NCBI GenBank assembly: GCA_016722945.1
Contig: JAEQMT010000023.1
Coordinates: 1 to 64,000 of the forward strand
Length of the DNA: 64,000 nucleotides
Origin: Desulfofustis sp. PB-SRB1
Lineage (GTDB): Bacteria; Desulfobacterota; Desulfobulbia; Desulfobulbales; Desulfocapsaceae
Reading direction: 5' to 3'
Of the stretch, positions 33,590 through 36,540 are shown piece by piece. The notes beneath the pieces were generated by a model. It was not told the origin of the DNA. It did no database searches and saw only the letters and a program-made list of their open reading frames with translations. Positions within the stretch are counted from its first letter, which is position 1. Each line of letters starts with the position of its first letter. The position numbers and the translations under genes are program-made.

Positions 33590-36283
33590 TCACTCCGGAG
33601 CGTAGAATTCCCACTTTCCGGTTGTCAAATTATGTTTGAAATTCATCACCAGCCGGGCCGGTATACCGCTGCTGATATCGGTGGCCCGCAGGTTGAAGAT
33701 CAGTTGATCACCGATCCTGTGCGTATATTCCACCTGTGCCCCGACCAGTCCATCGATATCGAGGCGTGGGAAATGGGCTTCGAAGATTTCCAGAAAATGA
33801 TCTTCAAGATAGGCGATACGGCCCTCCAACAGCAGGTCTCGCTCCGCCTCCTGGATGGATATGGCGGCGTCCGCGCTTATTTGTGAAAATTCGGCATCAG
33901 CACTAAAGGGGCTATTCTCGATAGATGCGATAACGGCCCTCCACTTGACAATAGCATTACGATACTCCCGGCTCTCCAAATAGCCGGTTGCCGCCTGGCT
34001 ATCGCGGGTGACGGCGGCCTGGAGAATAATGCGTTCTAATTTTTGTCTCTCGTCACCGGAGAATGTCTGCCGCAACAATTGTTCATTTGCCTCGAGGATT
34101 TCGATAGCTTGCCCATATTCAGCGATCGCCTCGTTCCATCGATTGCTGCTGAAAGCACCCCTGCCCGCCGATATTGCTTCAAACAAGGTGGCCTGGACAC
34201 TGCGTAAGCGCAGCTCGTTAATCTGCGCCTGGTCGGGGGAGGAAGACTGTCGGGCGGCGGTTAGCGCCGTCTGATAATAGTCATGGGCGCTGGCCCATTG
34301 CCGAGTGGCATATGCCTCATCACCCTGTCTGATCATATCGGTGACGGCTATTTTCTCAAGCTGTGCCGAGATTGATTCTACCACCTCAGAAGTATCGCCG
34401 AGCGAATCTGATTGGGCAAGGGCAAGTGCCTCTTGCAGATCACGGCCGGCGTCCACCCACTGCTGCTGCTCAAGATGAGAGGTTCCAGAGGCGATGAGAA
34501 GCTGTACGTTGATGAAGGCGAGGTTCTCTTCAATGGGGGTAAGCAGCTCAGGTTCGATGACATCGTTTTTGCGGGCAAAGTTGAGCGCATTGTCGTATGC
34601 ATCTTTTGCCTCCTGCCACTGCCTTTCCGCAAAGAGCGTGTCGCCAGATTGTTTGAGTGTTTCAAATTCAGTAATTTTGGCAAGTGTTTCTTTGGCGATG
34701 TAGGTACCGTCAACCAGGACGTTGCCGGCCAGCCCCTGTCTGAATTTTTCTGACTGCAGCAGGCGATTGCTGGAGTCGACAAGGTGATCCCGGTTGGCGG
34801 TTTCGAACAGCAGGATTTTATGCGCCGTATCGGCGGCTGTTGCGCATAGCTGTTGAGCCTGGGCGAAATTGTCTTTGATGTAAAGTTGCTGGCAGGCGAT
34901 AAAGGTGCTCTGGGCCTGTTGGGAAAGATTGATGTCGCGATAGAAAAAGTAACCAACCACGCCGGCCACCATCACCATCACCGCGAGCACGGCGGGGATG
35001 ACCGGGTGCAGCGGCCTGCGCAGGGTGTCTTCATAAAAATTGCCGCTTTTCTTCTGGGGCTGCTTTTGTTTCTTTTTTGGTATGGCGGCGGGTTGTTTTT
35101 TTCCGGATTTTCGAAAAAGGTTTGCAAAGATACCTTTCTTGCCCTTTTTGTCCTCTGGGGGTGCGGCATCAGCTTTTTTCTTTTTTAATTTCTTGGCGGC
35201 CGGTTCGCTTTGCTTCACGCCGCCGGTCAGATCAAGCCCCTCAAGCATCTGCTGGGATTCAACCACACGATCAATATCCTGGGCAATCCCCGGGTAGTCC
35301 GACACCATGGCGGTGACCTGGCGATACAATTCCAGCGCCCCGCCGGTATCTCGATTTTCTTCCAGCTCGCGGGCCTGCTGGTGCCATCCGCGTGCTTTAC
35401 CCAGAGTGTCGGCACACCGCTTAGCCAGTTCGTGCTGGTCGGCAAACAGGTCGTTGCCGGCAAGAGCGGCAAGTTCGCGATCGAGCTCCACGAACCGTTT
35501 TGTCCTCGCCAGCAAGCTCAGCCTGTCGGTATCTATTTGCTGAACTTTCTCGGAACCTGCCTCACTATCAACTTCCTCGGCTGATTCGCCGTCGGCCTCT
35601 AACTGAAGCGGGTCACCTTGCGGCACACTCTGATCGAACAATGATTCGTCGGCGAGCTCATCAAGACCCGGAAAACTCGATTCAGGAAGATCGATCTCAG
35701 ACTCTGTTTCGAGCTCAATAGAAAAAACCGACTCTAATTCATCAGCGGCGAAATCCTGGTCGGGCTCTTTACTCTCATCCGTCAGGTGCTCGGGCTCTGG
35801 CTCTTCCGGTTCACCACTTTGTTCGTCTGGTACCGCCTCAATCTTGTTGACCGGCAAGAGATCGGGGTGAGCCCCATACCAGATGGCTGCCTCCTCATTA
35901 AAGGCATTGCTGGAGTAATAGATCTTGCCGATGAGCATATCACCAATGATGATGATGAGTTCGGCAAGAGAGTGGGTGTTCTCCCAATATTCCCCGAGAC
36001 AGATTGCCTGCGGGTCGAAATCGGGATGAAAAACGGGGGTCTTTGGTTTGCAGTTCGGCGGAAAATGGGGGAAACCAAACGGAATATCGATGGAGACGAC
36101 GGTTTGTTCAGAGGTGTTGATATCGCCGCTTTCGTCTTTATAGAGACAGGGTAGACGGTAGGTTATCTCATATTTCTCCGGTGGATCGCCGGCAATGGGG
36201 GTGACTTCAATCGCCTCATGCTCCCCAAACCGCTCAACAATCTCGTCGTATACTGAGCGAAGTTGGTCTGCATCCAGCGCCAT
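33590..36283 (-). CDS. Membrane protein with N-terminal ubiquitin-E2-like (UBC) domain and periplasmic helical repeats
   Basis: An 897-residue protein of three parts. Residues 1-140 resemble a ubiquitin-conjugating E2 fold: a beta-rich first half, FPPNCKPKTPVFHPDFD at about 74-90, then ICLGEYW, whose C95 aligns with the E2 active-site cysteine, and downstream a helical segment with NEEAAIWY. The usual HPN is HPD here (86-88). Residues 150-250 are acidic and low-complexity. Residues 350-415 are very lysine-rich, followed by one transmembrane helix at about 428-448. The last 450 residues are helical and repeat-like (TPR-type patterns with A, L, Y and W spacing), presumably periplasmic. No E1, JAB protease or ubiquitin-like gene is nearby. 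The fold assignment is from motif reading and the function is unknown. The gene lies apart from its neighbours. Confidence 0.7.
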   Translation of the reverse strand: MALDADQLRSVYDEIVERFGEHEAIEVTPIAGDPPEKYEITYRLPCLYKDESGDINTSEQTVVSIDIPFGFPHFPPNCKPKTPVFHPDFDPQAICLGEYWENTHSLAELIIIIGDMLIGKIYYSSNAFNEEAAIWYGAHPDLLPVNKIEAVPDEQSGEPEEPEPEHLTDESKEPDQDFAADELESVFSIELETESEIDLPESSFPGLDELADESLFDQSVPQGDPLQLEADGESAEEVDSEAGSEKVQQIDTDRLSLLARTKRFVELDRELAALAGNDLFADQHELAKRCADTLGKARGWHQQARELEENRDTGGALELYRQVTAMVSDYPGIAQDIDRVVESQQMLEGLDLTGGVKQSEPAAKKLKKKKADAAPPEDKKGKKGIFANLFRKSGKKQPAAIPKKKQKQPQKKSGNFYEDTLRRPLHPVIPAVLAVMVMVAGVVGYFFYRDINLSQQAQSTFIACQQLYIKDNFAQAQQLCATAADTAHKILLFETANRDHLVDSSNRLLQSEKFRQGLAGNVLVDGTYIAKETLAKITEFETLKQSGDTLFAERQWQEAKDAYDNALNFARKNDVIEPELLTPIEENLAFINVQLLIASGTSHLEQQQWVDAGRDLQEALALAQSDSLGDTSEVVESISAQLEKIAVTDMIRQGDEAYATRQWASAHDYYQTALTAARQSSSPDQAQINELRLRSVQATLFEAISAGRGAFSSNRWNEAIAEYGQAIEILEANEQLLRQTFSGDERQKLERIILQAAVTRDSQAATGYLESREYRNAIVKWRAVIASIENSPFSADAEFSQISADAAISIQEAERDLLLEGRIAYLEDHFLEIFEAHFPRLDIDGLVGAQVEYTHRIGDQLIFNLRATDISSGIPARLVMNFKHNLTTGKWEFYAPE

Positions 36284-36378
36284 GTTTCATCCCCAGGGGT
36301 CAAGTGAAAAAAATCAGAGCTGATATTAACCGAGGAGACCAATGTAGCAGATTGATGACTTTTGTTGCCAGTGAAATT

Positions 36379-36400
36379 TGATGGCCTCGTAAAAACCTTG
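36379..36400. repeat. Terminal fragment of the 157-bp repeat
   Basis: tgatggcctcgtaaaaacct matches the left end of copy 2. The remaining bases to 36540 are not recognisable, except a degenerate arm-like segment (ccattttgcaaggttccc, 36495-36512) similar to the inverted repeat at 3261-3411. Confidence 0.5.
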
Positions 36401-36540
36401 ACATCGCCTCCGTTCGTCGCTGCCGCCCTCGATTACGCCACTAAAGAGCAGGCCTCAGCGGGAATCCGGTAAATGTCAATGGTTGGGGGGAGGGCCATTT
36501 TGCAAGGTTCCCATATATAGCGGCAGGGTGCGGGAAAAGA

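Follow-up and report, generated by a model that had tools for sequence, protein, structure and literature searches.

A UBC (E2) fold, apparently reused as a binding module, in a membrane-anchored TPR protein family of Desulfofustis and its relatives

Inactive E2 folds occur as binding modules in eukaryotes, where the UEV and RWD domains are inactive UBC folds that bind ubiquitin or peptides. Bacterial proteins with E2-like domains are known from CBASS type II systems. They are also described for Bil systems (PMC11354881); the E2s of both systems are operon-bound with E1 or JAB genes, whereas the protein described here is not and is matched by no PADLOC model. The polyUbl operons of bacteria contain catalytically inactive E2/RWD-like domains, as described in 2006 (Iyer 2006, row 6e; PMC1779556), so that an inactive E2 fold in bacteria is not in itself new. 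These row 6e domains, the UEV and RWD domains, and the family presented here all keep the UBC fold without conserved catalysis. The UEV/RWD-type trait, a UBC fold without the catalytic Cys, is seen in 21 of 101 relatives; the protein of the window itself has the Cys. Row 6e domains sit in Ubl/E1/JAB operons, whereas our protein has a membrane anchor and TPRs, and no Ubl context was found for it. With the E2s of PF00179 (UBE2S, UBE2C, UbcH5) it has in common the fold, the HP motif, the Trp after the active site, and an aligned Cys, but it carries HPD instead of HPN, the Cys is not conserved in its family, it is fused to a transmembrane helix and TPRs, and three tested pathway families are missing from its genome. 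The titles and abstract openings of the literature matches listed, several lists being capped, contained no description of a membrane-anchored E2-TPR family without conjugation genes.

The window, a stretch of 64,000 nucleotides from Desulfofustis sp. PB-SRB1, encodes this protein of 897 aa at 33590..36283 on the minus strand, as are all features given below. The open reading frame starts with ATG, a few bases downstream of GGGGA (read from the sequence). The UBC domain (aa 1-147; 35843..36283) is followed by a poorly conserved acidic linker (about aa 148-250; 35534..35842; 35 D/E versus 2 K/R within aa 151-250), a helical, TPR-like segment ahead of the membrane (about aa 260-345; 35249..35506) that has conserved blocks and a weak TPR_14 match below the cut-off (15.3 bits), and a Lys/Arg-rich stretch (about aa 356-425; 35009..35218; 23 K/R and 6 D/E) whose composition fits the positive-inside rule. 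A transmembrane helix follows (about aa 428-446; 34946..35002; hydropathy 2.42); the full-length alignment of 74 sequences, comprising the window protein and 73 relatives of more than 640 aa, has one such segment in 70 sequences and two in 4. Behind it lie a TPR region (about aa 447-818; 33830..34945), in which TPR_2 passes its Pfam cut-off in the window protein (37.8 versus 27 bits), and a C-terminal region that is conserved in the same alignment (about aa 819-897; 33593..33829). Cys464 and Cys480, shortly after the helix, are jointly present in 69 of the 74 sequences and probably form a disulfide in the periplasm. The basic residues before the helix and the Cys pair after it suggest a cytoplasmic UBC domain and periplasmic TPRs. 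The reading frame of the original prediction, its acidic and Lys-rich linkers and its single transmembrane helix were confirmed (the linkers and helix by composition and hydropathy), and its helical repeats, probably periplasmic, are indeed a TPR region.

Residues 1 to 147 are a genuine UBC fold. An AF2 model of aa 1-150 (pLDDT 88.2, pTM 0.85) retrieved E2 enzymes exclusively among the 50 matches listed by Foldseek (TM about 0.60 to 0.69) and likewise among the 50 listed by VIA-align (Z 12.3 to 13.5; top match with Z 13.5, rmsd 2.6 and 126 residues aligned), so that the predicted fold was upheld. Consistent with this, the best sequence match of the window protein in the PDB is UBE2C (E 7.5e-5), and a 47-row family profile had 135 matches to PDB sequences at E<=0.01, of which the 60 listed carry E2 names except for two called L3A2-1. 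The order of E2 motifs originally described was found as such: FPHFPP, FHPDF, AIC95LGEYW100, the helix SLAELIIIIGDML, and NEEAAIWY. The suggested HMM comparison gave a significant match of UQ_con (PF00179) to aa 63-136 (24.0 bits, E 3.2e-5), but the score stays under the 27-bit cut-off; some relatives pass it (e.g., with 30.9 and 30.3 bits), in 15 of 97 genomes. In 14 control genomes UQ_con had no match. The NCBIfam and PADLOC models gave nothing for the domain of aa 1-147. In the full-length alignment, conservation is highest in blocks of the UBC domain.

The catalytic residues are less constant than the fold. As predicted, Cys95 (codon at 35999..36001) aligns with the E2 cysteine. Conservation of this residue among homologues had been proposed as a check, and the outcome is divided: in 101 distinct domains, drawn from 160 loci with a match rather than from every genome match, position 95 is C in 80, but it is replaced in 21 (R 9, P 3, S 2, K 2, A 2, and Y, H, and D 1 each), and on a quick tree of these domains, Cys and non-Cys have replaced one another at least 8 times. 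The absence of conservation that would have spoken against the E2 reading is, therefore, partly what was found. Of the 99 domains from the window's order, 79 retain Cys95. Position 95 is occupied by H, S/R, S, and Y in different lineages of the main clade. The tree was made from 148 columns and leaves 38 of 98 inner branches open; its root and the placement of L160 and L161 are unsure because both are long branches that meet. The second catalytic landmark, the Asn of HPN, is missing in 99 of the 101 domains, that is, in all 99 of the window's order: at position 88, part of His86-Pro87-Asp88 in the window protein (36020..36028), 94 domains carry D, 3 carry E, 2 carry A, and 2 carry N. The Asn occurs in the E2 of a conjugation operon in genome G472, which also has the Cys, and in a Cys-less fusion of 1054 aa from another family. 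Some eukaryotic E2s are active without this Asn. Ten of 14 other landmark positions are invariant in all 21 Cys-less domains (P34, Y38, P72, P76, H86, P87, W100, N129, A132, and P144), and the remaining four vary (P35 kept in 18, D88 in 15, L109 in 20, and W135 in 17). For the aligned domain, pN/pS was 0.18 to 0.46 in eight Cys-less pairs (0.33 in the closest, R versus S), 0.23 to 0.32 in two mixed pairs, and 0.11 to 0.28 in five Cys pairs, with several pS values near saturation and some pairs sharing a member. These values argue for purifying selection on the domain even where the Cys is gone; since they are somewhat higher than those of the Cys pairs, the constraint may be partly relaxed.

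The genome of the window offers little of a conjugation pathway. Its only UQ_con match is the gene at 33590..36283, and profile searches for Prok-JAB, YukD, and Prok-RING_1 gave no match each. The YukD model, which stood for ubiquitin-like proteins in this search, covers one of several Ubl families, and it detects 1 of 14 control genomes, Prok-RING_1 detecting 4 of 14, none over the cut-off; because both models match so few controls, their absence weighs little. Two ThiF proteins exceed the cut-off, and a third, partial match is weak and below it; the two resemble, as we assume, ordinary housekeeping proteins of the MoeB/HesA and TcdA types. The genome-wide search for E1, Ubl, and JAB genes called for by the original prediction yielded ThiF proteins of housekeeping appearance but no YukD or Prok-JAB match. 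No Prok-JAB over the cut-off was found in 46 of 54 family carriers of the E2-like gene. The statement of the original prediction that no E1 or JAB gene is adjacent was borne out: the genes around it in the window are, by reading, KdsD-like, HAD, YkgJ-like, and SecDF-like, and no E1, JAB, or Ubl gene is among them. By reading, the usual neighborhood in the window's family consists of SecDF-like, YkgJ-like, HAD, KdsD-like, and AdoMet-cycle genes; a SecDF-like gene is near the family gene in 18 of 20 loci (L031-L050), the two exceptions being a short contig and L050, which has different neighbors.

The domain is present in 89 of 144 genomes searched, our own included. It occurs in 78 of 88 genomes of the window's family and in 11 of 56 outside it, all of these in two sister families. 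An even sample of the phylum had it in 12 of 395 genomes, of which ten belong to the window's order (our own included) and two lie beyond it. An alignment query recovered 156 relatives, whereas a full-length protein query of genome contigs recovered none; among the best 80 of the 156, which were used, the named records belong to Desulfobulbaceae, Desulfocapsaceae, Desulfurivibrionaceae, and related genera, which we take to be Desulfobulbales. Ten genomes of the family are without the gene, and four of these (G007, G009, G024, and G035) are small (1.8 to 2.4 Mb, 79 to 94% complete), a possible hint that the gene was lost as genomes shrank. Cys-less paralogues of about 530 aa with a transmembrane helix shortly after the UBC domain were seen in two genera (L051-L056); three of them (L051, L055, and L056), all from one genus, adjoin genes that read as ClpA-like and HolA-like.

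In most relatives, a divergently transcribed gene lies immediately upstream, with a product of mostly 201 to 395 aa. Four Cys of its N-terminal domain are invariant across all 22 products aligned; a cNMP-binding-type middle (25 of 31 aligned) and then DUF4388 follow, as assigned by Pfam in the two proteins run. Where at least 1.2 kb of upstream sequence was available (89 distinct-domain loci), this Cys4-cNMP-DUF4388 gene is adjacent and divergent in 68 and absent in 21, and the adjacency persists where the other neighbors differ (L058, L060, L062, L064, L066, and L067). The regulator is likely the partner of the UBC-TPR protein in most relatives. It cannot be essential, since no match to its N-terminal domain was found in the window's genome, and another partner must therefore exist as well. 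We considered a hidden ubiquitin-like fold in this N-terminal domain, which gained no support. Its AF2 model (pLDDT 81.9) has the order beta-beta-alpha-beta-beta and no convincing relative in the PDB: Foldseek gave nothing at E<=0.001, the best VIA-align match is 3on5 (titled xanthine dehydrogenase; by reading, XdhC-type) at Z 6.3, a level the tool calls common, and a profile of the domain had two chance-like matches (E 0.04 and 1.7) among solved sequences. At the site where relatives have the cNMP-DUF4388 gene, positions 36375-36480 of the window are part of a dispersed, seemingly MITE-like repeat. A query of 201 bases had at least 40 other matches in the same genome, a lower bound because scoring covered 40 of 255 first-look candidates, and 39 of them had 75 to 81% identity (E<4e-12). 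The element comprises about 160 bases with the ends TGATG..TCGTAAAAACC and GGTTTTTACGA..CCATCA in 15 of 20 copies aligned with that of the window, which is without the right end; an Rfam search of it gave no match.

Outside the order, a protein of 361 aa (L170, genome G472) matches most strongly, with 119 bits to the family profile. Its domain is related, but it has HPN and Cys, a zinc-ribbon-like tail where the family has the membrane helix and TPRs, and a complete conjugation operon around it, encoding a YukD-type Ubl (60.5 bits), a ThiF E1 (185 bits), a JAB protein (48.8 bits), a Prok-RING_1 protein (35 bits), and FHA and DnaJ proteins. The gene row at L170 3904-14443 (Ubl, E1, JAB, FHA, RING, E2, and DnaJ, with AAA and subtilase genes by reading) is, judged from its predicted products, a full bacterial ubiquitin-type system. 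This operon type may be covered by a 2011 paper on prokaryotic RING proteins (cited in PMC7159879). No E2 of this type was found among the relatives searched in other genomes of G472's own family. A second distant relative (G168) is a Cys-less UBC-TPR-TM fusion with no conjugation genes visible by eye across 19 kb. A search from both distant genomes gave, besides known members, one weak match (L192). The E2 domain was likely recruited from an operon of the Ubl-E1-JAB type, after which the HPN Asn would have been lost and the Cys would have been lost repeatedly; the direction of this change is a matter of interpretation, and both distant domains are long branches. Genome G027 has, in addition to the scaffold protein, a separate row (L068 3425-5997) of an E1-like gene (377 aa, by reading), an E2 gene (176 aa; UQ_con 34.7 bits), and a Prok-JAB gene (208 aa).

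Is the 897-aa protein a conjugating enzyme? Probably not. A divergent but active E2-like modifier would form a thioester at C95 with a Ubl of an unrecognized kind, delivered by a ThiF-family E1, and would, at the membrane, act on proteins of the envelope or cytosol. The aligned C95, the conserved H86-P87 and W100, the Cys in 80 of 101 domains, and the ThiF proteins of the genome speak for it, but we hold it to be quite unlikely: the Cys has come or gone at least 8 times while the domain stayed constrained, the HPN Asn is missing throughout the window's order, Prok-JAB, YukD, and Prok-RING_1 are without a match in the genome, and both ThiF proteins look like presumably ordinary MoeB/HesA-type and TcdA-type enzymes. 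In the Cys-bearing members, C95 might instead be a redox or ligand-binding Cys, and the domain a sensor in communication with the Cys4-cNMP-DUF4388 partner. The four invariant Cys of the partner would suit such a role, and in the raw counts, scored by hand in 93 rows, Cys and adjacency go together (both in 63, neither in 12, Cys only in 10, partner only in 8); 6 of the 12 rows with neither are the paralogues of about 530 aa. However, the coupling, strong in raw form, is unproven once relatedness is removed (supported branches give four independent pairs, with a median p of 0.5), and the window protein has C95 in a genome without a partner match; a sensor of this kind is thus improbable, if slightly less so than an active enzyme. 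That the UBC domain is a decaying vestige without function, only the TPR part being of importance, would agree with the disappearance of catalytic residues from some members and with the somewhat higher pN/pS of the Cys-less domains, but the domain comprises the most conserved blocks and pN/pS without the Cys is still 0.18 to 0.46, which makes decay very hard to believe.

Taken together, loss of the Cys, loss of the HPN Asn, selection on domains without the Cys, and the missing pathway families favor a non-catalytic use, and an enzyme fold was apparently reused as a binding module, because relatives keep the fold yet lose the catalytic residues. Between the two options left by the original prediction, a stand-alone E2-like modifier or a non-catalytic UBC scaffold, the evidence leans to the scaffold. 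We regard it as reasonably probable that the exapted E2 fold is a non-catalytic, cytoplasmic docking module of a membrane and periplasmic TPR scaffold. In this model, the N-terminal domain would descend from the E2 of a bacterial ubiquitin pathway and work like the UEV and RWD domains of eukaryotes. Facing the cytoplasm, it would bind a partner via a predicted face made of PFGFPHFPP, FHPDF, W100, and NAFNEEAA; judged from conservation, the surface that surrounds the former active site is the likely binding site. The flexible acidic linker, the TPR-like segment, and the one membrane helix would join this domain to the periplasmic TPRs, docking would bring the cytoplasmic partner to an inner-membrane protein, and the periplasmic TPR region, probably with a disulfide, would hold or organize envelope proteins. 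Counting against this reading are the Cys in 80 of 101 domains, that of the window included, the four landmarks that vary among Cys-less domains and their somewhat higher pN/pS, the eukaryotic E2s that are active without the HPN Asn, the few controls matched by the YukD and Prok-RING_1 models, and the absence of the partner gene at 21 of 89 loci and of a match to it in the window's genome. More tentatively, and with the balance of our judgment against it, the pseudo-E2 might be a near family-wide device for transmembrane signaling or assembly without ubiquitin-like chemistry; here, the cytoplasmic pseudo-E2 would read a regulator, typically Cys4-cNMP-DUF4388, and relay its state via the helix to the TPR platform.

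If the docking model is true, exaptation of a pseudo-E2 would have taken place in bacteria as well, in a chromosomal gene, in most of a family, and outside recognized conjugation systems. With natural variants that carry Cys, Ser, Arg, Lys, His, or Tyr at the active-site position, the family would make catalytic versus non-catalytic use of the fold directly testable.
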